Positions 1,435 to 19,969 of a stretch of 42,322 bases of DNA are shown here, piece after piece. Source of the stretch: Betaproteobacteria bacterium (lineage in GTDB: Bacteria; Pseudomonadota; Gammaproteobacteria; Burkholderiales; Usitatibacteraceae); contig JANYFH010000111.1 of the NCBI GenBank assembly GCA_025362705.1, positions 1 through 42,322 on the forward strand, given 5' to 3'. Below the pieces are notes generated by a model, which was not told the origin of the DNA, did not search any database, and saw only the letters and a program-made list of their open reading frames with translations. How positions within the stretch are numbered: the first letter of the stretch is position 1; each line of letters opens with the position of its first letter. Made by a program: the position numbers and the translations under genes.

Positions 1435-3774
1435 CTATACGGCTTTCTTATGCGGTTTTAACAGGAACGTTGCCAGCGCCGGCAACAAAAAGATCGCGCC
1501 CAACATATTCAGGAAGAACATGAACGCGAGCAAAACACCCATGTCCGCCTGAAATTTCAGCGCCGACATCGCCCATGTGCCAACACCCAGGGTCATCGTC
1601 ACTGCAGTGAAAACCATCGCGGCGCCACGTTCTTTGAGCGCTTCAAAAAAAGCCGCGCCCAGTTCCATGCCTTCTTCGAGATGCACTTCGAGGCGATCGA
1701 ACAGGTAGATGCCGTAGTCAACACCGACACCGACGCCTAACGCAATAACCGGCAGGGTTGATACCTTGAGTCCAATACCCAGCAGCGGCATCAATGCCTC
1801 ACAGAGTATCGACACAATGGCCAGCGGGATCAGAATGCAAAGCGTCGCGCGCAGGCTCCTGAAAGTGGCCCAGCACATCAATAACAGCGCACCGAAAATG
1901 GCAGCGTGCATTTCGTAGCGCGCACTGTCAACGGCTTCATTGGTCGCCGCCGCCACTCCCATGTTGCCGGTGGCGAGTTTGAATTCCAGTTTGTCGCTGT
2001 TGCTTTCCTTAGTGATGTTTTTCACTTCGCTGACCAGGCGTTTCAATGTTTCACCCTGCTGGTCTGTCGTGTTCACCAGCAACTGCATGGCCGAGCAATC
2101 CGGATTCAACAGGCCGGTGGCGGTATCGATCGGTGTCACACTTTGCGCCATCATCGAAGGGTCGCGCGGCAACTGGCGCCACTTGAGATTGCCTTCATTG
2201 AAGCCGGCATTGATGTTGCGCGCAAGACCTGGCAATGACATCACGGACTGCGTGCCTTCGACGTTTTGCATATACCAGTCGAATTTCTCGATGGTCGACA
2301 TGATGTCGTAGTTAGTGCACGCACCTTGCACACCCTTGGTTTGTGCAACTACGCCTAGTGTATTCACGCCGACCGCGAACTTCTGCACGATAACGCCGTT
2401 ATCAACGTTGTAACGCGAAGTGGCGCGTAGTTCAGGCACACCGGAACCGTAATCACCGACTTTGAGGTCGTGCGCTTTCCATAGTCCAAGCGCCAGCACA
2501 ACGGCCGCAATCGCGACAATGACGGTGGCGCGCTTTTTTTGTACGCAGCTCGATGCCGTGTGCCAGATCCGCTCAACGCGATGTTCCTGCGTTACTTCTT
2601 TGCCAAGCGCGCTCTTCGACATGGAAAGATAGGAGAGCAGGATGGGCAATAACATTTTATTGGTGATGATCATCCACGCTACACCCAGCGATGCCGTGAT
2701 ACCGAGCTCGCGCACGATGTCGATCGGGATCAGCATGATCACAGCAAAGCCGAGCACATTGGTTACCAGCGCCAGCGTGCCGGGAATAAAAATAGTGGCA
2801 AACGAATGCTTGGCCGCGGTAAGGCTGTCAGCCCCACCTATAACCTCGTGCTCCCACGATTTGGTCATTTGCACTGCGTGCGAAACACCGATGGAAAATA
2901 TCAGGAATGGCACCAGAATCGACAGGGGATCGATACCGAAGCCGATGATAGGCAACGTCCCCAGCAACCACAACACCGGCATCATCGCAACGACCAGTGC
3001 GACCAGCGTTAATTTCAGATCTTTCACGAACCAAAGCATCAGCACCGCCGTAATGACGAATGCGATCAGGAAAAACATGATCACACCGCGCGCACCCGCA
3101 GAGATGTCGCCTACCGCTTTGGCAAAACCGATGACGTGAATGCTGTGGTTCGGCCCTTCGTACTTGGCGCGCAATTCGTCGAGCTTGTTCGACAAATCAA
3201 AATAATTGAGCTTCTCGATCCGGCCTCCGTCCTTCGGGATCGCTTCCAGCAAGCCGGCCATCACCAGCGCGCCGGTGAAGTCGGTGGCAACGGTACGACC
3301 GATCTCGTTGGATTTTTGCACGTTGCCGCGCACAATGATCATGTCGGCCGACGTGCCCTGGAAGGTGGCGGGGATGACATTACCACCGGCGAAACCCTCT
3401 TCAACGACCTCGATGAATCTGGTGTTAGGTGTGAACAGCGAACGCACGCTGGGTTTGTCGACCCCTTCGAGCGCCATGATGTCGTTGGTTAAGGCTTTCA
3501 GTTTGGCCATGAACTCCGGGTTGTAGATATCACCCTGCTTCTGCACCAGCGCAATGGCGATCCGGTTGGCACCACCGAACACGGTTTCATATTCCTTGTA
3601 CACCTTCATGTACGGATGCTTCAACGGCACCATCTTGTTGAAGCCCGCATCGACCTTCAACTGGCTCGCGGAAATGGCGAAACCGACCGTGACAAAAGCA
3701 AAAACAATCAGCCAAATCTTGCGATTATTGAAAATGATTGCGGAAAATTTTTCGATGAGTTTTTGTAAGTTCAT
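1435..3774 (-). CDS. MMPL/RND-family transporter (HpnN-like lipid exporter type)
   Basis: 779 aa with two repeated multi-TM halves (FFLIAFVITAVLMLWFV..., LGVGVGVDYGIYLFDRL...) separated by large periplasmic loops. Confidence 0.9.
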   Translation of the reverse strand: MNLQKLIEKFSAIIFNNRKIWLIVFAFVTVGFAISASQLKVDAGFNKMVPLKHPYMKVYKEYETVFGGANRIAIALVQKQGDIYNPEFMAKLKALTNDIMALEGVDKPSVRSLFTPNTRFIEVVEEGFAGGNVIPATFQGTSADMIIVRGNVQKSNEIGRTVATDFTGALVMAGLLEAIPKDGGRIEKLNYFDLSNKLDELRAKYEGPNHSIHVIGFAKAVGDISAGARGVIMFFLIAFVITAVLMLWFVKDLKLTLVALVVAMMPVLWLLGTLPIIGFGIDPLSILVPFLIFSIGVSHAVQMTKSWEHEVIGGADSLTAAKHSFATIFIPGTLALVTNVLGFAVIMLIPIDIVRELGITASLGVAWMIITNKMLLPILLSYLSMSKSALGKEVTQEHRVERIWHTASSCVQKKRATVIVAIAAVVLALGLWKAHDLKVGDYGSGVPELRATSRYNVDNGVIVQKFAVGVNTLGVVAQTKGVQGACTNYDIMSTIEKFDWYMQNVEGTQSVMSLPGLARNINAGFNEGNLKWRQLPRDPSMMAQSVTPIDTATGLLNPDCSAMQLLVNTTDQQGETLKRLVSEVKNITKESNSDKLEFKLATGNMGVAAATNEAVDSARYEMHAAIFGALLLMCWATFRSLRATLCILIPLAIVSILCEALMPLLGIGLKVSTLPVIALGVGVGVDYGIYLFDRLEVHLEEGMELGAAFFEALKERGAAMVFTAVTMTLGVGTWAMSALKFQADMGVLLAFMFFLNMLGAIFLLPALATFLLKPHKKAV

Positions 3775-3828
3775 GGCGCGCTCAATTGGTGAGACTACAA
3801 GTGGTGTCAGCGGAAATTCTGTGGCCGT

Positions 3829-4929
3829 CTATTGCTTGGCAGGTGCAGCCGCAGCGAACAGCACCTCGCGCACCCCCGCTTCGCCGATCAGCAACAACGC
3901 GTTTGGCGCGCCCAGCAGAGGAGCAGAAAGCGCTTTGGTTGATCCGGATGACAGCGGAGAGAACGACTCGCCGTTATCTCGTGATACCAGCACCGTTCCG
4001 GAAAGCCCCGCCAGCACGAGTGCGCCATCGGGTAGACGGGTAGAACCCATCAGCGACGCAACCGATTTGTTTTCAATCTGCTTCCAATTATTCAACGACG
4101 GATCGGTACTACGATAAATTCTGCCGCGCAATCCGTAGATAAGCACTGCTCCGTCCTTTGCCTGAATCGCGCCAAAAAAGGAGCCCTTGTATGGTGACGC
4201 GATCTTTATCCAGGTCTTGCCACCATCGTCGGATTTGGCAAGCATGCCCGCTTCACCCGCAACAAACAGTTTATTTTCTCCGAGTTTCACAATAGCGTTC
4301 AGATGTTTGTCAGCATCGCCACCTTTGCCCCCTGCGTCGTCATCTACGGCCTTTTTATTGCCAACACTCTCGTATTTGCCTTTCTTGGACGTACTAACCT
4401 GAGCCGCCGTTTTCGGGGGGGCGAACATCGTGCGCATGCCCCAGACCTTACCGCCATCGGTGGTCGCGTAGAACGCACCGTATGCGCCTACAGCAAAGCC
4501 CGTATTGGCGTCGACGAAGGTAACATCCATCAACGGTTTTTGATCCTCTGCTGCTGAAAAGGCTTTAACCCACGACTCACCCCGATCAGTCGAGGTAAGA
4601 ATGGTGCTGTCGTGACCCACCGCCCAGCCGACCTTGTCATCAAGGAAATACACCGCTGTCAGCAACGGTGTATTCGGCGGTGTCATGGCGCGCTGCCACG
4701 ACTCGCCGTTGCTGTCAGAGTAAACGATATAGCCACGATCCCCGACGGCCACCACGCGGTTGCCAATGCGGGTGGCATCGGTCAATAGCAGACGGGACAT
4801 CGTTTGTTTGGTGAGTGGCCCAGACACGGGCATCACGGCAGGATTGATTTGTGCGCGCACATCGAACGACACGCAGGTGGTTAGCACCACGCCTGCAACA
4901 ATGGCGGCAAGTACAATGAATTTTGTCAT
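3829..4929 (-). CDS. YCF48/BNR-repeat beta-propeller protein, exported
   Basis: 366 aa; signal peptide; repeated SxDxGxSW / TxDxGxTW motifs (YSDSNGESWQRA, TSTDRGESWVKA, TTDGGKVWG, SDDGGKTWIKI, SRDNGESF). Confidence 0.9.
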   Translation of the reverse strand: MTKFIVLAAIVAGVVLTTCVSFDVRAQINPAVMPVSGPLTKQTMSRLLLTDATRIGNRVVAVGDRGYIVYSDSNGESWQRAMTPPNTPLLTAVYFLDDKVGWAVGHDSTILTSTDRGESWVKAFSAAEDQKPLMDVTFVDANTGFAVGAYGAFYATTDGGKVWGMRTMFAPPKTAAQVSTSKKGKYESVGNKKAVDDDAGGKGGDADKHLNAIVKLGENKLFVAGEAGMLAKSDDGGKTWIKIASPYKGSFFGAIQAKDGAVLIYGLRGRIYRSTDPSLNNWKQIENKSVASLMGSTRLPDGALVLAGLSGTVLVSRDNGESFSPLSSGSTKALSAPLLGAPNALLLIGEAGVREVLFAAAAPAKQ

Positions 4930-5036
4930 GTGAATACAGCCTCGGCGAACAGTGAGCGGTGAGCGACGTTGAATGCAGATCGATTATTGAATTGCCGACT
5001 CTGTGGCGTCAATCGAAAAAGCCGCCTCCAAAAACA

Positions 5037-5065
5037 ATTCGGGGACAAAATAATTGTCCCCGAAT
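5037..5065 (-). terminator. Perfect 12-bp stem hairpin between the DUF1329 and YCF48-like genes, terminator-like on the minus strand
   Basis: attcggggacaa-aataa-ttgtccccgaat; read on the minus strand the stem is followed by TTGTTTTTGG. Confidence 0.6.
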
Positions 5066-5103
5066 ATTTACAGCCTGAAATACGCTAGATCTTCACCTTC
5101 CAA

Positions 5104-6477
5104 TCAACGCGTACCCAGATTGCGCAGGTTTTGCGGAGTGTAGTCGGCAGCAGTGCGCTTGATCGGCTGATAGATGACTTTCTCTTCCGAACGCAGGCCC
5201 ATCGCGATGTAGCGACGCGACTGAAGGTCATGGTGTACTTCGATCGTGCCAAACCACATCGGGACGTCGTACCAGTTCTCGCTGTGCTGCTCGGAGAAAC
5301 GCCACAATTGTCCGCGACCATCATATTTGTCGATCAGCACAACGTTCCAGCTATCTTCGTCGATGTAAAAGGTACGGCGCGCGTAGATGTGCGAGGTGCC
5401 AGCCTTCAACGTCGCATCCACCACCCAAACGCGATGCAGTTCATAGCGTGCCAGATCCTGGTTCAAGTGGCCCGGGCGTAGCAGATCGCCATACTTAAGC
5501 TTCGGATCCGTCATGCGATACGAGTTGTAGGGAATATACATTTCTCTCTTGCCGACCAGCTTCCATTCATAGCGATCAGTCGCACCGTTGTACATGCCGA
5601 AGTCGTCATTGGTACGTAGTCCGTCAGCAGCAGTACCGGGGTTGTCGTACGCCACGTTTGGCGCCAGACGCACGCGACGCTGTCCAGGGTTATACGTCCA
5701 CGCCGAACGCGGCTCCTTTGCCTGGTCAACGGTCTCGTGTACTAATAGAATCTGTCCGGCAAGGCGCGCTGGTGCAGTGGTGACTTGCAAATAATTGAGA
5801 ACCTTGTTGGGCTCGCGTTGCGCCGCTGTTTTCGACAGGTTGCCATATTGCAAATCATATTCGTACTCAAATTTCACGAGTGCAAAATCGCCAGTTGCAG
5901 TAACTGCAGCCTGTGCCCAGTTTTGGGCGAAAGTGTCACCCTTGTAATGCAAGATCATGTTCCAGATTGCTTCATTGCCGTCCTTGGGGATGGGAAACGG
6001 AACTCCGCCCGTGCAACCGACAACGCCGTTGCCACCGGTCGCAAGCTTGGCTTTGGCAGCACACTCTTTGGTTTCCTTGTAGTTTCCTTCCGGGTACGCC
6101 GCCGTGCGGCGCGTGGCGAAAACATTCAACTTGTAGGTTGGATACTGCTTCAGCATGGCCATCTGACCCGGCGAAAGATTGTCCTTGTATTTGTCGGCCG
6201 TCGCAGCCGTGATTGTAAACAGCGCCTTGTCAGTCGGGAACGGATCGGGATAAGTGCCTCCCGTTTTGAATGCCAAACCCGCCGGTACCTTAGTGATGCC
6301 GCCATCCCATGCGGGGATGGTGCCTGCAGCATTTCCGGCTTTCTCCGCGCCCATGGGTGTCAGTGTGGTGCCGAGTTTCGCCAGGTCGCTTGCGCCAAGC
6401 TCGGCATAGGCTCCGACCGAAATGGCCAGAGCCCCTACCGTGGCCGATGCCAACATCGTCAATCGTTTCACGTTCAT
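5104..6477 (-). CDS. DUF1329 domain-containing periplasmic protein
   Basis: 457 aa; signal peptide ending AYA; family-typical N-terminus (LGTTLTPMGAEKAGN..GTIPAWDGGITKVP) and C-terminal RRFYIDEDSW region. Confidence 0.92.
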   Translation of the reverse strand: MNVKRLTMLASATVGALAISVGAYAELGASDLAKLGTTLTPMGAEKAGNAAGTIPAWDGGITKVPAGLAFKTGGTYPDPFPTDKALFTITAATADKYKDNLSPGQMAMLKQYPTYKLNVFATRRTAAYPEGNYKETKECAAKAKLATGGNGVVGCTGGVPFPIPKDGNEAIWNMILHYKGDTFAQNWAQAAVTATGDFALVKFEYEYDLQYGNLSKTAAQREPNKVLNYLQVTTAPARLAGQILLVHETVDQAKEPRSAWTYNPGQRRVRLAPNVAYDNPGTAADGLRTNDDFGMYNGATDRYEWKLVGKREMYIPYNSYRMTDPKLKYGDLLRPGHLNQDLARYELHRVWVVDATLKAGTSHIYARRTFYIDEDSWNVVLIDKYDGRGQLWRFSEQHSENWYDVPMWFGTIEVHHDLQSRRYIAMGLRSEEKVIYQPIKRTAADYTPQNLRNLGTR

Positions 6478-6619
6478 GTTTCCTCCAGATAGTTATCGTA
6501 ATTCTTTGCAAAATCCTGATTTCAAACGCCAGCCATTGTCTGTTGCAATGATCCAACGTTGACGATGGTTAGCCGCCGACTCCTGGGTTTGGAATTCGGC
6601 GGACTTTCCAGAACTCGGG

Positions 6620-8599
6620 CTAGAACGAGTAAGACACTACAAACGAGTAGAAATCACGGTCCTTGATCGGGTTAGCGCTGGAACAGAAGTTAGCGCCCTG
6701 TCCCGCAATGCCCAACGCGGGTATACCAGTGATCTGCGGGGAAAGCGAAGTTTGCCCGGCATTGGTGACCTGATCGGTACCACAGAACACTCTTCCACCG
6801 AAGAACGTGTTGTAGGAAATGTCGAAACTCAAGCGTCGCTGAAACTCAAGGTTGGCGCCGACCGAAACCGATTTCACTCCCTCGTTAAACGTCTGCGACA
6901 CACCCTTCACGTCATGACTGAAGGCAACACGTGGCGCCAGATTGCCGCCGAACAGCGCGTTGGCGTAATCAAGGCGCCCGACCAAACGGTAACCCCAGGA
7001 ATTTTCAGTTGTGTAACCGCCTGGCTGCACCGACCCCGCCTGTCCCGCTACGGCACCTTCAGCCGTCGCTGGCAGACCAGCCGCCGGGCCGCTGAATTTC
7101 TGGCCGTTGGTCAGTCCGTTGTACTTGGTATAACCGATCTCACCAACAACCACGCCCTGATCAGAGTGGAATATGTTCGGGAACGATTTGGTAGCCGTCA
7201 TCTGGAACTGCGTCTGCTTGACGCGACGCCAGCCGGTGATCTCCGTACCATTGGGAACCAAAGCCGCCGCAGAAGCACCGAAAGGGTTCGTCGCACTAAC
7301 CGTTCCAGGAATAGTCGCAAAACCAGTCACCAGATTTGGTGCGCTCAGAACAGCAAGAATCACCTCCGCGCTGGCTAGTTGCAAAGGCTGATTGGGACGG
7401 TACGAAACTTCACCTTGCAAGGCAATCCCGGCCGGCCCCTGCGTGTTAAATGAGAAGCCGTACATTTTGATGTCTTCCGGATACTCAACGAAATAACTCG
7501 CGGTACCCGTATGACCCACGGCTGCCGCCAACGGCCCGCCCGTTACGATGGATGTCGGCGTACCTTTCACGCCAGAGAGCACTGGAGTACGGCTATGGTA
7601 ATTCACGAAATAAGTGCCGAATTCGGTGTTGTTCAATTCCGTGGCGAGATAGCGAAATGCCGCGCCATATTGGCCGGTATCCTTGGCATTGCGATCTGCG
7701 GTGCGCGGCACCCATACCGCAGCGGCTGGATCAAATGGACCGTAACCCAACAACTGCGTCGTTGGGAACGCAGGGGATGTTGGCGGCACCAGGTTAGTTG
7801 GCTTTTGATGGAACAAATCCTTGCGCCGACCGAAACTGACAATTATCTCCGTGGAATCATCCGACGCCGAATCGTTATTGCTGAAATACGAACCTCTCGG
7901 GTCAAGCTTGAATTTGTCGTGGTTGAACAGCATGAAGGTTTCCAGGCTGGCCTGTTTGGTCAATTCAAATGAAGCGTAGAGCGTACTGGTCGGAATGAAT
8001 GCCTCTTTGAGTTCTGAGCCAGGAACACGCAGCTTGGAAACATCCACCGCGTTGATTATATTGATACCGTTCGGAATGAATGTCGATTCACCCCAGGAAA
8101 TCACCTGCTTACCCGCACGAACGTTGATGTTTTTATCGCCGAATTCAAATGTGCGCGCAACGAAGGCATCGAGAAACTTCGCATCTTCGGCGAGACGATC
8201 CCGACCGATCGGACCGAGGCTGTTGGCTCTGCGGGCTTCCGTGTCGACAAAGTATGAACCGCGCACCAGCATGCTCCAGCCGTCGTACTTGCCGGATAGC
8301 TCGTGGGTACCCTTCAGCAATTGTGAGAACGGACGGTTCTTCGCGTAAAAGCGGTCGCCATCGTCTTCATTCGTGGAACGCGACGTACCGCCGTTGGCAA
8401 TACCGATCAGGCTCGGGTCGATCTTGTCAGCTCGTACCGAGATGCCATATGAAAATGTCGAATCAAAGCTGCCTGTAAAGCCATTATCGTAGCTGAACTG
8501 TCCGGCATTGGCGGTACCTGTGAGCGCTAATGCCACGGCGATTGCCGACGCTTTCAGCACGGGCGAGAGTGCGCAAGCGCTCTTGGATAAATTCCTCAT
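6620..8599 (-). CDS. DUF1302 domain-containing outer-membrane protein
   Basis: 659 aa; signal peptide ending ANA; family-typical region RAGKQVISWGESTFIPNGINIINAVDVSKLRVPGSELKEAFIPTSTLYASFELT; C-terminal aromatic residue (SFVVSYSF). Confidence 0.92.
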   Translation of the reverse strand: MRNLSKSACALSPVLKASAIAVALALTGTANAGQFSYDNGFTGSFDSTFSYGISVRADKIDPSLIGIANGGTSRSTNEDDGDRFYAKNRPFSQLLKGTHELSGKYDGWSMLVRGSYFVDTEARRANSLGPIGRDRLAEDAKFLDAFVARTFEFGDKNINVRAGKQVISWGESTFIPNGINIINAVDVSKLRVPGSELKEAFIPTSTLYASFELTKQASLETFMLFNHDKFKLDPRGSYFSNNDSASDDSTEIIVSFGRRKDLFHQKPTNLVPPTSPAFPTTQLLGYGPFDPAAAVWVPRTADRNAKDTGQYGAAFRYLATELNNTEFGTYFVNYHSRTPVLSGVKGTPTSIVTGGPLAAAVGHTGTASYFVEYPEDIKMYGFSFNTQGPAGIALQGEVSYRPNQPLQLASAEVILAVLSAPNLVTGFATIPGTVSATNPFGASAAALVPNGTEITGWRRVKQTQFQMTATKSFPNIFHSDQGVVVGEIGYTKYNGLTNGQKFSGPAAGLPATAEGAVAGQAGSVQPGGYTTENSWGYRLVGRLDYANALFGGNLAPRVAFSHDVKGVSQTFNEGVKSVSVGANLEFQRRLSFDISYNTFFGGRVFCGTDQVTNAGQTSLSPQITGIPALGIAGQGANFCSSANPIKDRDFYSFVVSYSF

Positions 8600-8899: not shown

Positions 8900-10099
8900 T
8901 CATAGCGCCTCAAATAATCCCGCCGCACCCATGCCAGTGCCGATACACATCGACACCATTCCCCACTTTTGTTTGTTGCGGCGCATCCCGTGCAGCAATG
9001 TTGCCGCGCGGATCGCACCGGTCGCACCCAAAGGGTGGCCGAGCGCGATGGCACCGCCCTGCGGGTTGATTTTGTCCGCGTTCAAACCGAGATCCTTGAT
9101 CACCGCCAGTGCTTGTGCGGCAAACGCTTCATTGAGTTCGATCCAATCGAGATCATCGGCCTTGATGCCCGCCTGGCTCAACACTTTCGGAATCGCCTTG
9201 ATCGGACCGATGCCCATGATTTCCGGCGGCACGCCCGCGACTGCGAACGACACAAAACGTGCGATCGGTTGAACATTGTATTTTTTCAACGCTTTCTCGC
9301 TCATCAGTAAAACCGCGCCGGCACCATCGGACATTTGCGAGGAATTACCGGCAGTCACGCTTCCTTTGGCCGCAAACACGGTGCGCAATTTTGCGAGTGA
9401 TTCGAGTGTTGAATCAGCGCGTGGGCCTTCGTCGGTGTCAGCCATTTTCTTTTTGTGTTTGATCGCGCCACTCATCAGGTCCGGTACCGATGATTCAATT
9501 TCATAAGCGAGAATTTCATCCTTGAAGCCACCTGCTGCGATCGCCTTTGAGGCCTTCATGTGCGATGCCACCGCGAATGCATCCTGCTCTTCGCGCGTCA
9601 CTTTCCATTGTTTGGCGACGTTCTCTGCGGTGATGCCCATGCCGTAAGCGATAGCCACGTGTTCGTTATTGTGAAATACGTTTTGATTAAGCGCGATCTT
9701 GTTGCCCATCATCGGCACCATCGACATGCTTTCCGTCCCCGCAGCGATCACGACATCATCATCGCCGGTGCGAATGCGGTCCGCCGCCATGCTGATTGCC
9801 TGCAAGCCCGACGAACAGAAGCGATTGATCGTCACCGCCGGTACATTGTCAGGCAGGCCCGCGAGCAACACGCCAATGCGCGCCACGTTCATGCCCTGCT
9901 CACCCTCCGGCATTGCACAACCGACGACGACGTCACCGATGTCGTGCGGATCGAGTCCCGGTACGTGGGCGATCACGCCGCGCAGCACGTGCGCGAGCAT
10001 GTCGTCGGGGCGAATATTTTTGAACATGCCGCGTGGCGCTTTACCGACCGGGGTGCGGACGGCAGCGACGATATAGGCTTCTTGAATTTGTTTGGTCAT
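8900..10099 (-). CDS. Acetyl-CoA C-acyltransferase (thiolase)
   Basis: 399 aa; NRFCSSGLQAI, NEAFAAQALAV, GGAIALGHPLGATGAI and CIGTGMGAAGLFE motifs. Confidence 0.96.
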   Translation of the reverse strand: MTKQIQEAYIVAAVRTPVGKAPRGMFKNIRPDDMLAHVLRGVIAHVPGLDPHDIGDVVVGCAMPEGEQGMNVARIGVLLAGLPDNVPAVTINRFCSSGLQAISMAADRIRTGDDDVVIAAGTESMSMVPMMGNKIALNQNVFHNNEHVAIAYGMGITAENVAKQWKVTREEQDAFAVASHMKASKAIAAGGFKDEILAYEIESSVPDLMSGAIKHKKKMADTDEGPRADSTLESLAKLRTVFAAKGSVTAGNSSQMSDGAGAVLLMSEKALKKYNVQPIARFVSFAVAGVPPEIMGIGPIKAIPKVLSQAGIKADDLDWIELNEAFAAQALAVIKDLGLNADKINPQGGAIALGHPLGATGAIRAATLLHGMRRNKQKWGMVSMCIGTGMGAAGLFEAL

Positions 10100-10153
10100 T
10101 TTAATTCTCCAGATATGAGGCGATCTCTTGCACGAGCGAGGATGGCAGGTGCT

Positions 10154-12526
10154 TTAATTGCGTAACGGCTTCCCAGTCTTGAGCATATGCTCAATCCTCG
10201 CCTGCGTTTTCTCAGTCTTGGCCAGCTCACAGAAATGCTTCCTCTCCAGCGCGAGCATCCAGTTTTCATCCACCATCGAGCCCGGCTCGATTTCACCTCC
10301 ACACAAACAGGCCGCGATGCGCGAACTGATATCGTAATCGTGATCCGAAATGAAACCGCCCTCTTTCATGTTGATGAGCATCATCTTCAAGGTCGCGATA
10401 CCGGTGTTGCCCGCCACGGGGAATGCGGTTGGTGCCAAGGGCGGACGATAGCTTGCGTTGGCCATTGCGCGCGCAGTTTCGAGTGCGACGAAAAGCAATT
10501 CTTCACGATTGAAAATGATGATGTCGCGCCAGCGCATATGGCCCATTTCCTTGGCCTCCTGCGCGCTTTTGGAAACTTCTCCCATCGCGGCGAGCTTGAA
10601 GCTCTTTTGAATCGCAGGCAATACATCCCCGCCGTTGGCGGAGAGTGCCGCACGCAGAGCCATTTCTTTTAAGCCACCCCCAGCAGGCAGCAGACCGACA
10701 CCGACTTCAACCAGGCCAATGTAGCTTTCGAGCGAAGCAACGACCCGGTCCGAATGCATCTGGAATTCGCAGCCACCGCCGAGCGCCATGCCATCAACCG
10801 CAGACACGACAGGAATCATGCTGTATTTAATGCGCTGGGACGTTGCCTGAAACGTCGCGACCATCGCTTCAAATTCCGCAAATTGTCCGAGCTTCAACGC
10901 TTCCAATGCTTTCACCAGATTGGCGCCCGCCGCGAACGGCGGCTCGGTCTGCCAGATGACGAGTGCTTGGTAATTTGCTTCCGCCAAATCGATGGCCTTG
11001 TTCAAGCCCTCGAGTACATCGCTGCCGATGGAATGCATTTTTGTTTTGAATGAAACGATGGCGATGTCATCGTGACCTTTGGTGCTCCACATGCGCACGG
11101 CATCTGTTTCGAAAATCGTTGTGCCCTTCTCGGCTTTTTCGCCGAGCAGCAATTCCGGATAAAGCTGGCGTTGATACACGGGCAATGTGGAACGCGCGAC
11201 CAGCTTTCCGGTTTTGCCGGAGAGCGATCCTTCATTGGAGTGAACGCCCTTTCTTCCATCCGTGACCCACGCAGGCAACGGTGCGTTCGACATGGTTTTT
11301 CCAGCGGCGATGTCTTCACCAATCCATTTCGCAACTTGTTCCCAACCTGCGGCCTGCCAGGTTTCAAACGGCCCCATCTTCCAGCCGAATCCCCAGCGAA
11401 TCGCGAAATCGATGTCGCGCGCAGAGCTTGCGACATCACCAAGATGCACAGCAATGTAATGAAAGACGTCGCGGAAAATCGCCCACAGGAACTGCGCCTG
11501 CGGGTGCGTGCTGGCGCGCAGCGCGGCGAATTGTTCAGCGGGATTTCTGATCTTCAAAATGGCCGCAACTTCATCCGCGACCTTGGCATCTGACACACGG
11601 TAATCCTGCTTGGCGAGATCGACCACGAGAATGTCTTTACCTTTTTTCGTAAAAAAACCGACCTTGGTTTTTTGTCCGAGCGCGCCTTTTTCGATCAACG
11701 CTTTCAGGAAGGCGGGCACGGCGTAATACTTGTGCCACGGGTCGTTGGGCAAATTGTCGTCCATCGTTTTGAACGTGTGCGCGAGCGTGTCAAGACCGAC
11801 CACATCGGCAGTACGATAAGTAGCACTCTTGGCGCGGCCAATCGCAGGACCGGTGAGCGCATCGACTTCATCGAAGCCCAGCTTGAATTGCATCGTGTGA
11901 TGCATGGTCGCGGCGATGGAAAACACGCCGATGCGGTTCGCCACAAAGTTGGGCGTGTCGTTAGCGCGGATCACGCCTTTGCCGACAGTCGTGACGAGGA
12001 AAGTCTCGAGTTGATCAAGAATGGCTGCATCGGTAACTGGTGTCGGGATCAACTCGACCAGCTTCATGTAGCGCGGCGGATTGAAAAAATGCACGCCGCA
12101 GAAACGATGTCGCAGCGCTTCGGGAAAAACTTTTGACAATTCGGTGATCGACAAGCCGGACGTATTGGACGCGAAAATCGCGTCGGCGCGCATGAAGGGC
12201 GCGACTTTTTCGTAAAGCGATTTTTTCCAATCCATGCGCTCGGAAATGGCTTCGACAATCAGATCGCAGTCCTTTAACCAGTCGAGATTGTCGTCGTAGT
12301 TGGCGGGGGTGATTTGGGTCGCGCGCGCTTTGGTGGCGAATGGCGCGGGTTGCAGCTTGGACATCGCGTCAATGGCTTTCAACACGATGCCGTTCTTTGG
12401 TCCTTCCTTGGCAGGCAAGTCAAACAGAATGCATTTGACGTTGGCATTGGTGAGGTGGGCCGCGATTTGCGCGCCCATCACGCCTGCGCCGAGGACGGCG
12501 ACTTTTTTGATATGAAAATTGCTCAC
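10154..12526 (-). CDS. 3-hydroxyacyl-CoA dehydrogenase / enoyl-CoA hydratase fusion (HAD N-terminal, ECH C-terminal; FadN-like order)
   Basis: 790 aa; N-terminal VAVLGAGVMGAQIAAHL NAD-binding motif, C-terminal crotonase motif AVDGMALGGGCEFQMHSD; GTG start. Confidence 0.94.
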   Translation of the reverse strand: MSNFHIKKVAVLGAGVMGAQIAAHLTNANVKCILFDLPAKEGPKNGIVLKAIDAMSKLQPAPFATKARATQITPANYDDNLDWLKDCDLIVEAISERMDWKKSLYEKVAPFMRADAIFASNTSGLSITELSKVFPEALRHRFCGVHFFNPPRYMKLVELIPTPVTDAAILDQLETFLVTTVGKGVIRANDTPNFVANRIGVFSIAATMHHTMQFKLGFDEVDALTGPAIGRAKSATYRTADVVGLDTLAHTFKTMDDNLPNDPWHKYYAVPAFLKALIEKGALGQKTKVGFFTKKGKDILVVDLAKQDYRVSDAKVADEVAAILKIRNPAEQFAALRASTHPQAQFLWAIFRDVFHYIAVHLGDVASSARDIDFAIRWGFGWKMGPFETWQAAGWEQVAKWIGEDIAAGKTMSNAPLPAWVTDGRKGVHSNEGSLSGKTGKLVARSTLPVYQRQLYPELLLGEKAEKGTTIFETDAVRMWSTKGHDDIAIVSFKTKMHSIGSDVLEGLNKAIDLAEANYQALVIWQTEPPFAAGANLVKALEALKLGQFAEFEAMVATFQATSQRIKYSMIPVVSAVDGMALGGGCEFQMHSDRVVASLESYIGLVEVGVGLLPAGGGLKEMALRAALSANGGDVLPAIQKSFKLAAMGEVSKSAQEAKEMGHMRWRDIIIFNREELLFVALETARAMANASYRPPLAPTAFPVAGNTGIATLKMMLINMKEGGFISDHDYDISSRIAACLCGGEIEPGSMVDENWMLALERKHFCELAKTEKTQARIEHMLKTGKPLRN

Positions 12527-12561
12527 TTGAAACTCCCGAGTTTACGATTGAATAATTATTT

Positions 12562-12627
12562 AAACTCTAGCACTGGCGCGCTTCTACAGCCTGAAATGCC
12601 TTGAAACACCCGCCAATGCTAGTATTT
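12562..12627. repeat. Intergenic inverted repeat, family copy 1
   Basis: Arms AAACTCTAGCACTGGCG (12562-12578) and CGCCAATGCTAGTATTT (12611-12627), 14 of 17 complementary plus 2 G.U in the minus-strand RNA. Confidence 0.7.
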
Positions 12628-12652
12628 TTCCTGTTTGTGCTATGTAATCATT

Positions 12653-13072
12653 TCAGTCCGCTGGTACTGGTCGCGGCTTCCTCTGGTCATCCACCGCGAC
12701 ATACGTCAACTGCGCTTCCGTCACCTTCACGACCTCGGCACCAAATCGCTGGCGTTGCGCATAAACCTCGACGTCGACAGTCAGCGACGTACGCCCGACC
12801 TTGACGACATCAGCATAAAAACTCACCAGGTCGCCGACCAGCACGGGCTGTTTAAACTGGAACGAATTCACCGAGACTGTGACGACCTTGCCGCGAGCGC
12901 GCACTGTGGCCGGGACGCTGCCCGCCAGATCAACCTGCGCCATCACCCAGCCGCCAAAGATCGTCCCGTGCGCATTGGTATCGGCCGGCATCGGGATGAT
13001 GCGAATGACAGGCTGCCGGTCTTTCGGCAGATGTGTCACTTCGCAAAAAGGCTCGGTGGTTTCATTCGTCAC
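12653..13072 (-). CDS. Acyl-CoA thioesterase (hotdog, YciA-like)
   Basis: Hotdog signature PADTNAHGTIFGGWVMAQVDLAGS. Preferred GTG start at 13072 (MTNETTEPF...) forms a GTGA overlap with the upstream ligase stop; the 175-aa ORF in the track is probably over-extended. Confidence 0.9.
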   Translation of the reverse strand: MTNETTEPFCEVTHLPKDRQPVIRIIPMPADTNAHGTIFGGWVMAQVDLAGSVPATVRARGKVVTVSVNSFQFKQPVLVGDLVSFYADVVKVGRTSLTVDVEVYAQRQRFGAEVVKVTEAQLTYVAVDDQRKPRPVPAD

Positions 13073-15033
13073 AGTGCATGCCCCTTGTACATATCGTCGA
13101 TCGCGTTCGCATATTTTTGCAAAATAACATTGCGCTTCAGCTTCAACGTCGGCGTAATCATGCCATTGTCGATAGTCCATTTTTCGCGCGCGACCGCGAC
13201 TTTGCGAATGGCAGCATAACCCGGAAAATCCTTGGTCTGCCTGCCGATGCGCTGCACCAGAAATTTTTCCGCTTTCTCGCGGCTATCGCCGTCGAGACGC
13301 GCATCCAGTTTCGCTTCGGCAGCGGCGCGACCCCATTCTTCATCATTCAATACCACGATTGCCGACAGGTAAGGTTTTGCTTCGCCATACACCAGCGCCT
13401 GTTCAAACAGCGGGTCCATCTGAATGGCCATCTCCATATCAACGGGTGGCACTTTTTCGCCGTTGCCGAGAACGATAATTTCCTTGATGCGTCCGGTGAT
13501 GTGAATGAAACCCTGCGAATCGATCTTCACCTGGTCGCCCGTATTGAGCCAGCCATCTTCCGACAGCACCGCGCGTGTAGCCTCTGGATTGTTCCAATAG
13601 CCCATCATGATATTAGGCCCCTTGGCGAGCAGCACATTGTTCTCACCGATGCGCGTTTGCACACCCGGAACAGCGGGGCCGACCGAATTCGGGTCATTCC
13701 GTTCGAGCAGATTGACTGCCAGCAGGGGCGACGCTTCCGTCATCCCGTAGCCCTGGCAAATTGGCAAACCGAGTCCGACAAATACTTTGGACACCGCGGG
13801 CGACAAGGCGGCACCGCCGGCCACCGCAAAGCGAAGCCTGCCGCCAAATCGCGCCAACAGTTTTTCGGCAACGAGTTTTTTCAGGATCGGCCACAGCAAA
13901 AAAGAAATCTTCCACGGTCCGCGCTGGTTTTGATATTCGAAACGGCTCCAGCCAACGTTCACGGCAAGATCGAACAATTTGCGTTTGCTCGGTGAGGATT
14001 TTTTTAATTGTTCGTTGATGGCGGCGAGGAAGCGTTCATAAATTCGCGGCACCGAAAAAATGATAGTCGGCTGGACAATGCGAAAATCCTCTGCAAGCGC
14101 CGGAATCGAACGCGAAAATACGATAGATGCCCCTGACACCATGTTCAAATAATAATCCGCCGTGCGCTCGAACATATGCGACAGCGGCAGGAACGATAAA
14201 AAAACATCGTCCGAAAAAACGTCATAAACCGCGAGGCCCGATTGCACGTTCGACAATATATTGCGATGTGAAAGCATCACGCCTTTTGGTTTACCGGTGG
14301 TGCCGCTGGTATAGACAATAGTCGCCAGATCGGTGGCTTTGGTGGGCAAGCGATCGTGTGCGCCCGGCGCTGAAGGTAGCCAATCGGCCAGCAATTTCAA
14401 ACGTGGCTCCTCCGGATCGTTGACTGGCTTCACGGTAAGAATGCAATGTAATGAACCGAGGCGCTCCTGTACGGTCTTCAACCGTTTCCAATGTTCTTCG
14501 CCGTCAATAACGATCAGTTTCACAGTGGCGTCGCAGAGGATGTAGGCAACATTGTCGGGGCGATCATCGACAAACAGCGGTACCGTGACCAAACCCGCAG
14601 CGAACGCACCCTGGTCGGCGACGACCCAGTTGATACTGTTTTTGAGCATCACCGCGATCCGCTCGCCCGGCTGCAACCCTTCGCGGCGCAAGCCTTCGCG
14701 CATGCGTGCAACACGCTCGCCGGCTTCGCGCCAGTCGATGCCTATCCATTCTTTGGTACTGCTATCGAATTGGCGATACGCCGGCGCGTTCGGCGAGGTG
14801 CGGCATCTCAACGCGAACACGTCGGCGACGGTTGCCGCGTCGTCGAACATCAGGTAACGCGTGCCGTGACGGTTTTGCAGGATCGATGATTCTGCCAACG
14901 GAGTCTCCTCGTGTGTTCGCGGTGACGAAATGTGTTCGCCCCCGACAGGTACGACGCTTGGGCTTGCCAATTGCGCGTCCTTGACACTACGCAGAATTAT
15001 ACGTTCCCGCCGCGCAAAGCTTGCGGCGCTCAT
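13069..15033 (-). CDS. Long-chain acyl-CoA synthetase / AMP-dependent ligase
   Basis: 654 aa; AMP-binding motif IVYTSGTTGKPKGVMLSH, GYGMTEASP, GWLNTGDQVKIDSQGFIHITGRIKEIIVLGNGEKV. Confidence 0.95.
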   Translation of the reverse strand: MSAASFARRERIILRSVKDAQLASPSVVPVGGEHISSPRTHEETPLAESSILQNRHGTRYLMFDDAATVADVFALRCRTSPNAPAYRQFDSSTKEWIGIDWREAGERVARMREGLRREGLQPGERIAVMLKNSINWVVADQGAFAAGLVTVPLFVDDRPDNVAYILCDATVKLIVIDGEEHWKRLKTVQERLGSLHCILTVKPVNDPEEPRLKLLADWLPSAPGAHDRLPTKATDLATIVYTSGTTGKPKGVMLSHRNILSNVQSGLAVYDVFSDDVFLSFLPLSHMFERTADYYLNMVSGASIVFSRSIPALAEDFRIVQPTIIFSVPRIYERFLAAINEQLKKSSPSKRKLFDLAVNVGWSRFEYQNQRGPWKISFLLWPILKKLVAEKLLARFGGRLRFAVAGGAALSPAVSKVFVGLGLPICQGYGMTEASPLLAVNLLERNDPNSVGPAVPGVQTRIGENNVLLAKGPNIMMGYWNNPEATRAVLSEDGWLNTGDQVKIDSQGFIHITGRIKEIIVLGNGEKVPPVDMEMAIQMDPLFEQALVYGEAKPYLSAIVVLNDEEWGRAAAEAKLDARLDGDSREKAEKFLVQRIGRQTKDFPGYAAIRKVAVAREKWTIDNGMITPTLKLKRNVILQKYANAIDDMYKGHAL

Positions 15034-16145
15034 GGCGTATCTCCGGCGGCCTCGGCGGCGCGAATACGATCCTCGGTCGCGGGATGCGTAGAGAGGTAGC
15101 CGAAATCGCCGCCTTTGCCGGCATCGGGTTTCTTCGGCCCATCGGGTGCATCAGATGATGAAGGCTTGGCATCCGGCAACCCAAGTTTCTTGCGCAGCAT
15201 GTTTTCCTTGCGGCGGTCTTTTTGCATGCCTTCCAATGCGCGCATCGCGGTCGCAAATGTTTTCGGTGAGCGTCCGGTTTTTTTCAATAACGCGAAGGCG
15301 AAAGCATCAGCTTCACGTTCGAAATAGCGCGAATACCCATTGTGTAAAAGTGCTGTCGGTATCGTCACGGCAATACCGGTAAGCGAGGCGACATCGCCAT
15401 AAATTGCTGCGGCTGCGAGCGCCGAAATGGAAGTCTGCAGTAGATGCCGCAAACTGTGACGATGCTGTACATGCCCAAGCTCATGGGCGAGTACCGCTGC
15501 GGTCTCATCCACACCCGGCATGGCTTGTACCAATTGATCAGTGACCACGATCACACCACCCGGCAATGCAAAGGCGTTGGCGCCAATCCAGCCGCCGTCG
15601 CGAAACTCCAGCCGTACTGTCGAGGGCAACTCTGCAGCAGTTCGCAGCGCGACAAATGCGGTGGAGATTTTCGCGCGCATGTCTGCATCCAGCGCGGAAG
15701 GTTCAAAGACCGCCTGGTCGAGCGATTTCATTCCGGCATCGGCGATCTGCGATTCAATGCTGATCGGAAGGCGCTGCGAAATTTCGCGCGCCACCCACGG
15801 CACGCCATAGAGGTAACCGAGCACCACTGCTACAATTACGCCAGGCAACGCAGTAAAGACGAAACCCAGATGCGATTCCAGACGATGCGCAAGCGTTTGC
15901 GACGAGCCTACGCCGAACAACGCGTCGACCGCAGCGTGATCATTTACGATAGCCGCTGAACCGTCGGTAAATTCGATACGACGTGGTGCTCCCTTAAGTT
16001 GCGGTTGCACCCGCACCGACGACAATGTGTATTGCATCGAAGCGCCATCATGCGCAACGACGACGATATCGCCGGTCACCATGATGCTGGCTGCGATGCG
16101 CCTGGCGCTTTTCCCGTCGTAATAGTCGGCGCTAAGCGGGATCAT
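15030..16145 (-). CDS. M48-family metalloprotease with N-terminal extension
   Basis: 371 aa; HELGHVQHRHSL zinc motif and downstream EREADAFA; internal TM (VFTALPGVIVAVVLGYLYG); ATGA overlap with the ligase start. Confidence 0.9.
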   Translation of the reverse strand: MIPLSADYYDGKSARRIAASIMVTGDIVVVAHDGASMQYTLSSVRVQPQLKGAPRRIEFTDGSAAIVNDHAAVDALFGVGSSQTLAHRLESHLGFVFTALPGVIVAVVLGYLYGVPWVAREISQRLPISIESQIADAGMKSLDQAVFEPSALDADMRAKISTAFVALRTAAELPSTVRLEFRDGGWIGANAFALPGGVIVVTDQLVQAMPGVDETAAVLAHELGHVQHRHSLRHLLQTSISALAAAAIYGDVASLTGIAVTIPTALLHNGYSRYFEREADAFAFALLKKTGRSPKTFATAMRALEGMQKDRRKENMLRKKLGLPDAKPSSSDAPDGPKKPDAGKGGDFGYLSTHPATEDRIRAAEAAGDTP

Positions 16146-16146
16146 G

Positions 16147-17331
16147 CTAAAGCGATAGATCGATGCTGAAAAACTCGCCCAGCTCTTCGCCGGTGGCGCC
16201 TACCTGCGCGCTCACGCCACCGACGAATTCGTCCAGTGACGACTCTGATTCGAGTGACAAACATTCTGCACGGTAGCGCATCACCCGCACGACGGCCCAG
16301 GGAATCGCCAGGCCGAGCGAGAACAGGATGGCGAACATGTTCACAAAGTACAGCCACGCCAACCCTCGCAGCTTCAATGTACTGACAAATGAAACCTGTC
16401 TATCGAGACGCGTATTGTTGAACACCAGATTGCCAATACGCGACTTCGTGTATCCAAACATGAGTGATCCGATCGCGAAGTAAGCCAGTGAAAATACCAG
16501 CGCCAGCAAGACCGCCGCAAACACACCGCCCTTTGCACCGATGGCGGCACTGGCGGCGACGACAATACCGACAACGATGCCAATGACAACGATAACGCCA
16601 AAGGCAAGCAACATCGTTAAAAGATAAATCTTGTAGAACGCACCAATACCGACATCGATGGAAAATGGCGCGGCGCCGTACTTCGAATGATTGACGTGCA
16701 GTTTTTTCAATGAACCGATTGCGAACGGATAGACCGCAAAAATCGCCAGCATCTGTAGGCCAACGAGCACGAAGAACAGGGTGGGCGGCGGCACCTTGCC
16801 TGCCTTGTCAATCTCGGGCATCAAGAACGGAAACACCAGCACCAGCGCGACTGGCCATATCGTTTTCAGCACGTCCATATAGGTGGCCTGGAATCGAAAG
16901 CGAATATTTCGATAGCTCGAGTTGAAAGCGTTGAACGCCATAGAACGGGCGATGAACCATGGCGCAGCGACAAACAAACCCAGCGCCAGCCCCGCTGCCA
17001 CTTTTGGCATGAAATAGTTAATGCCGGAGTACGTACCAAATGCCGCTGCCGCGATCAACCGTCCCTTGAGGATGGCAATCGGGTTGCCGTGATATTCGAA
17101 ATTGGCGTCGGCAACCCAGGTGTGGCCGTAAAAATAGCGCTTCTTGCGAACTTTGGCCCAGGCGGAATAAATGCCCAGGGTGATGATGGTCAGAAAGAGG
17201 TTGACAATCCAGATGCCGAAAAATCCGCCCGTTGTGCCGGTGAAAGAGAAGGGATGCGACTCGCACGGCGCGCCGGTCGCTGGTTCAATCTGGGCGAAAG
17301 CGTCGCCGCCGCCCAAAGAAATATCCTGCAT
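16147..17331 (-). CDS. DUF898 / YjgN-family membrane protein
   Basis: 394 aa polytopic; HPFSFTGTTGGFFGIWIVNLFLTIITLGIYSAWAKVRKKRYFYGHTWV is characteristic of the family. Confidence 0.93.
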   Translation of the reverse strand: MQDISLGGGDAFAQIEPATGAPCESHPFSFTGTTGGFFGIWIVNLFLTIITLGIYSAWAKVRKKRYFYGHTWVADANFEYHGNPIAILKGRLIAAAAFGTYSGINYFMPKVAAGLALGLFVAAPWFIARSMAFNAFNSSYRNIRFRFQATYMDVLKTIWPVALVLVFPFLMPEIDKAGKVPPPTLFFVLVGLQMLAIFAVYPFAIGSLKKLHVNHSKYGAAPFSIDVGIGAFYKIYLLTMLLAFGVIVVIGIVVGIVVAASAAIGAKGGVFAAVLLALVFSLAYFAIGSLMFGYTKSRIGNLVFNNTRLDRQVSFVSTLKLRGLAWLYFVNMFAILFSLGLAIPWAVVRVMRYRAECLSLESESSLDEFVGGVSAQVGATGEELGEFFSIDLSL

Positions 17332-17409
17332 TAATTCTCTCCCGTTTTTATTGATAGCTTAGTCGGCACTGCAAGCAAGTGTATTGTTTTTCTTTCAAGG
17401 CACAACAAG

Positions 17410-17877
17410 CTACGCTGCTTTTTTTCGTGGACTGATATACATCGTTATATCGGCATGCACCACGATATTGCCGCCAGTGTCTTTCACATCCACACTGACG
17501 ATCACGTCGCGGGCGGGGCCGTCACCAAAATCGGCAGCAGTGCACTCGGCAGTCAAATCGGTTTCGGATTTTTTAAGGTACTGCACATTCATGCTCTTGG
17601 GTAACCAGCGCATCGACGGCGGCAGGCTCGCTTCCATCAACGTGCCAGCGCCGCACTCGGCCAGATTGCACACGGCGATCGCGTGGACTGTACCGATATG
17701 ATTCTCGACCGCACGCCGCTTTTTCATGCTTACGCGGGCATAGCCGGGTTTGAATTCCTCAAAGCGCGGCTTGATGGTCGAAAAATATGGCGCGGTAAAA
17801 CAAATGGCTTTTCCAAATAGCCATTTGCCCATTGGTTTAGTGGATAGCCTCCCCCACAACGCCATCACGTACGCCAT
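17410..17877 (-). CDS. Hotdog-fold protein (DUF4442-like thioesterase)
   Basis: 155 aa; ENHIGTVHAIAVCNLAECGAGTLMEASLP region typical of DUF4442/PaaI-like hotdog proteins. Confidence 0.8.
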   Translation of the reverse strand: MAYVMALWGRLSTKPMGKWLFGKAICFTAPYFSTIKPRFEEFKPGYARVSMKKRRAVENHIGTVHAIAVCNLAECGAGTLMEASLPPSMRWLPKSMNVQYLKKSETDLTAECTAADFGDGPARDVIVSVDVKDTGGNIVVHADITMYISPRKKAA

Positions 17878-17879
17878 GG

Positions 17880-19895
17880 TTAATACTGGCTCCAGCCAGC
17901 ATCTGGCGCAAATCGTGCGCCATGCTTTTGTTCAAGCAGCTTCATTTCCGCCAGCAGTTTTTCCTTGCCTGCGCTCTTCAGGTAATTGAGCGGGCCGCCA
18001 CGATGCGGCGCAAAGCCGGTTCCGAAAATTACACCCGCATCGCAAAGATCCGCATCGACGACAATGCCTTCACGCACACAGGCGACTGCCTCGTTCACAG
18101 CGGGCAGTGTCATGCGCATCCACAAAGGTGCCAGATCCGATATGCCAAAACCGCCGGCTTTTTGTGGCCTGCCGTTAACCCATTTGTAAAACCCTTCGCC
18201 GGATTTCTTGCCGAGTTTTTTGGCGGCAACCAATTCCTGAATTTTCTTGGGCTCAGGTCCACCGGGCTTGGCGAGTTCCTTGCCTACGGCGAGACCCACA
18301 TCCAGGCCAACGGTATCGGCCAACTCAATCGGACCCATCGGCATACCAAATTCACGCGCCGCGGCATCAATGGTTTCTGCCGAAAACCCTTCTTCCAGCA
18401 TCACTTGTGCCTCTGTCATGTAGGGCGTAAGAATGCGATTGACCAAAAAGCCGGGGGCGGATTTCACCGGGAGTGGCAGCTTGTCGATTTTTTTCACAAA
18501 TGCCTGCGAGAGCTTCATCACGTCTGCTGATGTTTGCGGGCCCTCGACAATTTCAACCAGCATCATCTGCGCGACGGGGTTGAAGAAATGGATGCCAACC
18601 AGACGTTCTGGTCTCGCCAGTCCAAGCGACAATTCCTGCAAGGGAATGGATGACGTGTTGGTCGCAAGAATGGCCGACATTTTCAGTTTCGGCTCAATCT
18701 GCGCGTAAAGTTTTTTCTTGATTTCCGCGTTCTCGACAATGGCCTCAATCACGAGATCGCAGTGATTCACGCCATCACCCTTGATATCCGGAATCAACCG
18801 GTCCATCGCGGCCTGAATGAGGTGCGGTTGCTTGAGACGTTTCTTGTACATGTCCGCGGCGCGTTTGATCGCGGGTGCGATTCGCGCGTGATCGAGATCC
18901 TGCAGCGTCACCGTGAATCCTTTTAGCGCGCACCACGCGGCGATATCGCCACCCATCACACCCGCGCCGACGACATGAACGTGCTTGATGTTCACATCGC
19001 TCGCGCCTAGCGCCTTCAAGCGATCCTGCAATTTGAAAATGCGGATGAGATTTGCGGTAGTCGGATGCTTGAACATTCCGGCGATCGAATAGGGTTGGTC
19101 TTGCGGAACATTGCGCGGATCGCCACCGTAGTTCTGCCACAGATCGATGATCGCGTAGGGTGCCGGGTAATGATCCTTGCGCGCCCTCTTCGCGACTTGC
19201 TTGAGCGAAGCACTCGCAACAAAACCACGCACGATGGGCCAATTGGTGATGGCATCCTTGAATGCCGGCTGATGCATTGCCGGCGGTTTGCCAAGCAACA
19301 TTGTTGCCGCGTTGGTGAAATGCCGGCGTGGCGCGATGACATCCACAAGGCCCATGTTCTTTGCACGTCTGCCATCGACTGCACGACCAGTCAGCATCAG
19401 GTCGAGCGCCTGCGCTGCCCCGATCAGCAGTGGCATGCGTTTGGCGCCGCCCCAGCCGGGCACGATGCCGAGCATTACTTCCGGCAACGCCATTTTTGTT
19501 TTTGCGCCGTCGTCAGCGATGCGATATTTACATGCAAGTGCGAGCTCAGTTCCGCCACCCATGCAGAAGCCATGTATCAACGCGACTGTCGGGAATGGCA
19601 ATGCGGCGACTTGGTCGAATACATCGTTGCCGAGTTTGGTGAATGCAAAGGCTTCATCACTGTTTTTAAGTGTCGTGAATTCATCGATGTCGGCACCTGC
19701 AGCGAAGCCGTTTTCTTTTGCCGAGAGAATGGCCAAGCCCTTCGGCGGCTGCGCTGCAAGCTGCGCACAAATCTCGCCCAGCTCGCGCAGCGCTTCGCTG
19801 GAAAACGTGTTGGTCGATGAATTCGCACGGTCAAATGTGAGCCACGCCAGTTGCGCGGCATCGACATCGAGTCGCCAGTGTTTCCAATTCGACAT
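17880..19895 (-). CDS. fadJ: Enoyl-CoA hydratase / 3-hydroxyacyl-CoA dehydrogenase fusion (ECH N-terminal, HAD C-terminal; FadJ/FadB order)
   Basis: 671 aa; GFAAGADIDEF and CMGGGTELALACKYRIA crotonase motifs, then VHVVGAGVMGGDIAAW and GPIELADTVGLDV. Confidence 0.93.
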   Translation of the reverse strand: MSNWKHWRLDVDAAQLAWLTFDRANSSTNTFSSEALRELGEICAQLAAQPPKGLAILSAKENGFAAGADIDEFTTLKNSDEAFAFTKLGNDVFDQVAALPFPTVALIHGFCMGGGTELALACKYRIADDGAKTKMALPEVMLGIVPGWGGAKRMPLLIGAAQALDLMLTGRAVDGRRAKNMGLVDVIAPRRHFTNAATMLLGKPPAMHQPAFKDAITNWPIVRGFVASASLKQVAKRARKDHYPAPYAIIDLWQNYGGDPRNVPQDQPYSIAGMFKHPTTANLIRIFKLQDRLKALGASDVNIKHVHVVGAGVMGGDIAAWCALKGFTVTLQDLDHARIAPAIKRAADMYKKRLKQPHLIQAAMDRLIPDIKGDGVNHCDLVIEAIVENAEIKKKLYAQIEPKLKMSAILATNTSSIPLQELSLGLARPERLVGIHFFNPVAQMMLVEIVEGPQTSADVMKLSQAFVKKIDKLPLPVKSAPGFLVNRILTPYMTEAQVMLEEGFSAETIDAAAREFGMPMGPIELADTVGLDVGLAVGKELAKPGGPEPKKIQELVAAKKLGKKSGEGFYKWVNGRPQKAGGFGISDLAPLWMRMTLPAVNEAVACVREGIVVDADLCDAGVIFGTGFAPHRGGPLNYLKSAGKEKLLAEMKLLEQKHGARFAPDAGWSQY

Positions 19896-19969
19896 GGTGC
19901 TATTCCCTCAATCCGAAAGTGTGTTGCTGATTTATTGTTGCAGGCTGCGCTGCCCAGCGAAATTTAGAA

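Follow-up and report, generated by a model that had tools for sequence, protein, structure and literature searches.

An AmeABCD-type envelope cassette with a recurrent hairpin between its two modules adjoins beta-oxidation genes in a member of the Usitatibacteraceae and may import fatty acids

We analysed a contig of 42,322 nucleotides (JANYFH010000111.1 of assembly GCA_025362705.1, a Betaproteobacteria bacterium placed by GTDB in the family Usitatibacteraceae of the Burkholderiales), called the window below, and focused on a cassette of four genes, here A, B, C and D, which encode a DUF1302 outer-membrane barrel, an exported DUF1329 protein, an exported YCF48-like beta-propeller and an inner-membrane MMPL/RND transporter. 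The cassette is real, conserved and functional-looking; A-B and C-D act as two units, a terminator-like hairpin recurs at the junction between them, and the cassette adjoins genes for beta-oxidation. We propose that it supplies the adjoining beta-oxidation enzymes with hydrophobic acyl compounds brought in through the envelope, most likely long-chain fatty acids or esters of these, and we give this import reading a probability of about 0.5.

The four genes follow each other in the order A-B-C-D on the minus strand between positions 1435 and 8599, separated by gaps of 142 (A to B), 174 (B to C) and 54 nucleotides (C to D). The features of the cassette are:

6620 to 8599, minus strand: A, DUF1302 outer-membrane beta-barrel, AmeA-like, 659 amino acids (PF06980, 502 bits over 643 residues, 2.6e-150)
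5104 to 6477, minus strand: B, exported DUF1329 protein, putative LolA-fold periplasmic carrier, AmeB-like, 457 amino acids (PF07044, 499 bits, 1.1e-149)
5037 to 5065, minus strand: terminator-like RNA hairpin at the junction of B and C, with a 12-bp stem ATTCGGGGACAA/TTGTCCCCGAAT and a 5-nucleotide loop TTATT, followed by TGTTTTT
3829 to 4929, minus strand: C, exported YCF48/BNR beta-propeller, AmeC-like and COG4447-like, 366 amino acids (PF14870 YCF48/PSII_BNR, 70 bits, 2.1e-19)
1435 to 3774, minus strand: D, inner-membrane MMPL/RND transporter of the HAE3 lineage, AmeD-like, 779 amino acids (PF03176 MMPL, 78 bits, 6e-22)

A reading made earlier from the letters and open reading frames (the sequence-only reading) had described these four consecutive genes, and both the coordinates and the Pfam families agree with it. 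The signal peptides that it had noted on three of the proteins open A, B and C, where, judged by eye, they end in an A-x-A-like site, and the C-terminal residue of A is the phenylalanine that it had pointed out (...YSF). The AlphaFold2 model of A (predicted local distance difference test, pLDDT, 72) contains many long strands and its best Foldseek matches were outer-membrane beta-barrels, such as Omp-Pst2, MOMP, OccAB1 and AlgE; no TolC-type protein occurred among the 50 Foldseek matches listed, and PF06980 was the only Pfam match of A, with PF03349 (FadL/Toluene_X) not found in it. For B, the model (pLDDT 88) retrieved LolA3 (9tp6, E 1e-16), a DUF1329 structure (4z48, E 1.5e-14) and canonical LolA (E about 4e-6), and a second Pfam match was to PF17131 LolA_like (33 bits). 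The kinship of DUF1329 with the LolA/LolB fold, named in the sequence-only reading, is thus supported by the structural comparison, which gives B a LolA fold; a LolA function is not thereby implied. C matches the Ycf48 structures 5ojr and 2xbg (E about 1e-13), and D, in which each half contains hydrophobic clusters by hydropathy, has sequence matches to RND structures that include MmpL5 and MmpL4. The NCBIfam subfamily nearest to D was HAE3 (136 bits, 8e-40; below the curated cut-off of 352), so that the HpnN-type assignment suggested earlier does not hold: D scored 71 bits against a cut-off of 752 for the hopanoid transporter model TIGR03480 and 24 against 1100 for NF052374.

Two further ideas on the mechanism were considered and dropped. 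The first-half motif of D reads S298-H299 in 98 of 98 aligned rows, with D686-Y687 as its second-half counterpart in 97 of the 97 rows that have these columns filled, but an asymmetric S-H/D-Y proton relay is not a unique mark of the lineage of D: the first-half aspartate is also absent from three other MMPL-type paralogues in the loci, and since the asymmetry is wider than the D lineage it gives no proof of a special mechanism. A tripartite HAE1 pump of the AcrAB-TolC type was rejected because A is porin-like with no TolC among the matches listed, and because none of the four proteins has an MFP or OEP Pfam match. With a LolA-like B and a porin-like barrel A, a route composed of a carrier and a barrel would fit better than a sealed TolC duct.

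Judged by its protein families and gene order, the cassette belongs to an already described kind, that of AmeABCD, the apolar monoterpene efflux system of Castellaniella defragrans 65Phen, which a 2018 study named and deleted by experiment (PMC6394551). When compared by family, order and length, the two share the same four families (DUF1302, DUF1329/LolA, COG4447/YCF48 and HAE3 RND) in the same order, with lengths of 605, 451, 316 and 787 amino acids for AmeABCD against 659, 457, 366 and 779 in the window. They differ in setting, as AmeABCD sits in a monoterpene island whereas the window cassette adjoins FadN/FadA-type beta-oxidation genes and no monoterpene genes were identified in the annotated part of the window, and in the direction ascribed to them, AmeABCD being read as an exporter while we propose that the window cassette may import. 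The four families were also listed in 2019 as one betaproteobacterial operon (COG4447-COG1033-PF07044-DUF1302) under AphS/AphR/AphT (PMC6449761); these operons belong to aromatic regulons, whereas the fatty-acid cluster of the window is headed by a PsrA-like TetR gene. In Pseudomonas putida, PP_0765, PP_0766, PP_2018 and PP_2019 are required for growth on Tween 20, and A-B and B-D contacts, together with a strong C-D contact, were predicted for these homologues in 2024 (PMC10866462). The sequence-only reading knew of no defined transport mechanism for the set; the idea that no mechanism or system has been defined is not borne out by these three reports. Related 'nanopod' clusters are known from the benzene-degrading Desulfobacterota strain ORM2a, in which the set is strongly expressed in a consortium (PMC13101534), and from Delftia Cs1-4, whose nanopods contain A- and B-type proteins (PMC3110197). 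As in the window, these clusters hold DUF1329, YCF48 and MMPL genes and an outer-membrane protein, although in ORM2a two extra genes are listed between B and C (PMC13101534); a tubular nanopod role is not indicated for the window cassette. We found no mention of the hairpin, the two-module count or the FadL contrast described below in the literature that we searched.

Two beta-oxidation modules lie upstream of the cassette on the same strand, which places the cassette downstream of them as had been stated before, and the long-chain cluster spans positions 8900 to 24542:

8900 to 10099, minus strand: acyl-CoA thiolase, FadA-like, directly upstream of A (NF006553, 724 bits, above cut-off)
10154 to 12526, minus strand: FadN-like 3-hydroxyacyl-CoA dehydrogenase/enoyl-CoA hydratase (3HCDH_N followed by ECH_1; NF052272, 624 bits), syntenic in the family
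12653 to 24542, minus strand: the remaining cluster, with a YciA-like thioesterase, a long-chain acyl-CoA ligase, an M48 peptidase, a DUF898 protein, a DUF4442 thioesterase-like protein, a FadJ-like protein, a thiolase, FadE and a PsrA-like TetR regulator

The order thiolase-A-B-C-D is kept in all 16 loci of the window's family that have room for it on the contig. Thiolase genes were over-represented near the cassette beyond what genome counts predict, both in C-D loci (18 of 27, with 1.2 expected; P 6e-19) and in A-B-C-D loci (6 of 34, with 0.74 expected; P 6e-5), figures that are inflated by related species. The TetR regulator heading the cluster is nearest to the PsrA model, yet scores under its cut-off. 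Upstream of its gene are two dyads (24586-24599 and 24644-24658), CAAACGTTCGTTTA, which resembles a PsrA site, and TGCTGCAATGCAACA. The only matches to the latter were near-copies in the loci L035, L039 and L041, 210 to 300 nucleotides upstream of the start of the A domain, and these copies may possibly reflect shared regulation. The palindrome CAGTCNNNNGACTG upstream of A was discarded, its frequency in the window being at chance. The M48 peptidase (with DUF7092) and the DUF898 membrane protein (15030-17331, minus strand) lie inside the beta-oxidation cluster; locus L046 has them as well, but the remaining family loci that were scanned do not. A second thiolase-DUF1302 fragment in the bin of the window (a contig of 2225 bp) was rejected as a paralogue, since over 187 bp it shows 100% identity with a congener's contig; it is probably bin contamination.

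The fatty-acid porin FadL, measured as a PF03349 (FadL/TodX) match above 100 bits, was recovered in 1 of the 25 genomes of the window's family against 11 of the 16 genomes from other families of the order. PF03349 was absent altogether from 16 family genomes, including the single-contig genomes G003, G015, G017 and G019, while DUF1329 was present in all 25 (the window's own genome included) and in 4 of the 16 others, two of them weakly. The cassette appears to stand in for FadL in this family, with the same role proposed for A; A belongs to a different family (PF06980) and has partners. To our knowledge, there is no general account of how long-chain fatty acids and other oils enter those Gram-negative bacteria in which no FadL can be recognised.

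The distribution of the cassette was assessed by scanning the GTDB collection with an alignment of D, which gave 80 loci in the Pseudomonadota, Thermodesulfobacteriota, Verrucomicrobiota and Nitrospirota, to which profiles of A to D were then applied. That the set recurs as neighbours, as the sequence-only reading stated, is borne out far beyond chance: 39 of the 80 loci contained A-B-C-D on one strand, 5 had B-C-D at contig ends, 29 had only C-D, one had A with C-D and 6 had only D, with C directly upstream of D in 74. The A-B and C-D pairs act as two units. In 28 genomes, chosen for this reason, D has no complete A-B pair next to it; 27 of them were examined and 25 of these, having C-D or D, encoded DUF1329 elsewhere in the genome (1 to 24 copies). 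Of the 30 B loci fetched, which carried a flank of only 1.5 kb, 25 had A adjacent to B, and the same genomes gave 1 to 9 D-type matches at the strict threshold. On a tree of D, made by a quick method and with some long branches, the label 'A-B attached' required four changes against a mean of 26.7 after shuffling, and the C-D loci lacking A-B fell into two clades, one large and one smaller, apart from a single row placed within the A-B-C-D rows. Orphan C-D is seen at least twice in this tree, and P. putida likewise carries its homologues in two loci (PP_0765/PP_0766 and PP_2018/PP_2019) where the window has one cassette, present in a single copy in its genome. The two-unit behaviour agrees with the contacts predicted for the P. 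putida homologues. Solimonas fluminis showed a striking multiplication of A-B front ends, with 24 DUF1329 matches but, under the strict threshold, 7 matches of the D type. A single-contig genome from another family of the order (L052) had all four genes in the order B-A-D-C and no PF03349 match, and in the loci L082, L093 and L094 a D of the same lineage had no C directly upstream, nor were A, B or C detected elsewhere in these loci.

The hairpin between B and C went unnoticed in the sequence-only reading and, as a new observation, has a stronger claim than the cassette. It is the best terminator-like site of its region, where the count of such sites is at chance, and it folds 4.6 standard deviations below shuffled sequences (z-score -4.6). 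In a uniform scan of the 180 nucleotides after each gene, with expectations taken from shuffles, a hairpin followed B in 21 of 54 cassettes against 0.25 expected; it followed A in 2 of the 54 and C in none, and for D the count was 18 of 95. Restriction to true gaps with dinucleotide shuffles gave 15 of 37 for the junction of B and C (0.22 expected), 2 of 13 for A to B and 0 of 5 for C to D; the other gaps are smaller, which explains part of the contrast between junctions but not the excess between B and C itself. The stem sequences vary between phyla and align within the window's family, where changes on both sides were seen in six of 13 stem pairs and inner pairs such as 9-22 (8 A-U, 4 G-C) had no unpaired cell, in an alignment that favours pairing because its rows were selected for the presence of the hairpin, with the GGGG/CCCC arms used as manual anchors. 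A dispersed repeat of the repetitive extragenic palindromic (REP) type was rejected: the arms CGGGGACA...TGTCCCCG occurred at exactly one site per genome in 9 of 13 genomes of the genus, the window's genome included, and this site was the junction of B and C in the genomes whose cassette was examined. Neither the hairpin nor the window had a match in Rfam.

The likely effect of the hairpin is that A and B outnumber C and D, and in the homologous cluster of ORM2a the proteome spectra were 106 for A, 158 for B, 65 for C and 60 for D (PMC13101534). Such an excess would suit a shuttle that serves a slower pump. The same stoichiometry could arise if the hairpin did not terminate transcription and instead protected the A-B portion of a processed mRNA by stabilising its 3' end, an explanation that we consider rather doubtful: in several cases no strong T tract comes immediately after the stem (for example GTTTCTGGA in L042), and a terminator is absent after C and rare after A in the cassettes scanned, but a clear T run directly follows the stem in many copies (L040, L041, L112 and L120).

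The earlier suggestion of a trans-envelope set for hydrophobic compounds is supported, and so are the LolA fold of B and the recurrence of the set; thiolase genes are over-represented nearby. For the organism of the window we infer the following route: barrel A would admit the molecule through the outer membrane, the carrier B would take it across the periplasm and dock on an inner-membrane unit in which the propeller C is joined to D, an RND protein driven by protons, C-D would pass it to or through the inner membrane, and the acyl-CoA ligase would then trap it, while the hairpin would permit A and B to be made in excess of C and D. Several observations weigh against this import reading. RND proteins are best known as exporters. 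No beta-oxidation neighbours were seen for the Verrucomicrobia cassettes in the loci scanned. Eight further genomes of the window's family have weaker PF03349 matches (65-91 bits, or pieces), and the FadL contrast largely concerns one family and is largely one evolutionary event. Outside the family, a PF03349 match above 100 bits was lacking from 4 of 6 A-B-C-D genomes with beta-oxidation linkage and from about 16 of the 28 others, a difference that is not significant, and we therefore dropped the idea of a broad complementarity between FadL and beta-oxidation-linked cassettes. Finally, deletion of ameABCD slightly increased Nile Red accumulation in cells de-energised with carbonyl cyanide m-chlorophenylhydrazone (CCCP), which was read as lost export, and reduced tolerance above 5 mM limonene (PMC6394551).

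These last results belong to the published view of AmeABCD as an efflux system, in which C-D would gather membrane-damaging hydrophobic molecules at the inner membrane and hand them to B and A for expulsion. We regard efflux as the main rival and a real possibility for the window, if not the one that we favour. Besides its lower tolerance at high limonene and its higher Nile Red signal with CCCP, the C. defragrans mutant was rescued by acetate (PMC6394551); operons of the set stand under aromatic-compound regulators, with a role in solvent stress proposed (PMC6449761), and D belongs to the RND family. The loss of ameABCD harmed growth on limonene and other hydrocarbon monoterpenes, while perillyl alcohol, perillyl aldehyde and perillic acid still supported growth unimpaired (PMC6394551), a result that was published as lost export and that we count in favour of import. 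The kinetics of Nile Red efflux were nearly identical in mutant and wild type (PMC6394551), which speaks against efflux, as does the requirement for Tween 20 growth in P. putida, which is hard to square with it (PMC10866462). In the window, moreover, the cassette is conserved, occurs once and forms part of a housekeeping cluster for fatty acids, and its A is not TolC-like among the matches listed. An improbable alternative is lipid housekeeping, by which the cell's own lipids would be moved between the inner and outer membrane, comparable to the hopanoids of HpnN and the lipoproteins of Lol, with the beta-oxidation setting reflecting lipid turnover. The LolA fold predicted for B, the MMPL/HAE3 kinship of D with HpnN and BstA, the single copy of the cassette in the window's genome and its presence in all family members would suit it; D, however, lies far under the HpnN and BstA cut-offs, B occurs in just those 4 of 16 genomes from other families of the order (two weakly) and multiplies in several genomes to as many as 24 copies, and the neighbours enriched around the cassette are catabolic. 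What tips the balance to import is that the family has a full long-chain beta-oxidation cluster yet for the most part no full-length FadL match, with the cassette adjoining that cluster wherever this could be seen, combined with the Tween 20 phenotype of P. putida. The most far-reaching version, that the whole betaproteobacterial family replaced FadL by a two-module RND-powered importer (barrel with LolA-like shuttle, propeller with RND motor), that a locus-specific terminator hairpin which covaries at the B-C junction sets the ratio of the modules, and that other phyla have unrelated hairpins there, seems to us unlikely as a whole.

If the cassette imports, it would define a second uptake route beside FadL, and it would explain two DUF families that are carried by many environmental degraders. 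RND-driven import by way of a LolA-type shuttle would, if true, be a new direction for this class of transporters. The hairpin between the cistrons offers a means of probing how much carrier works per pump.

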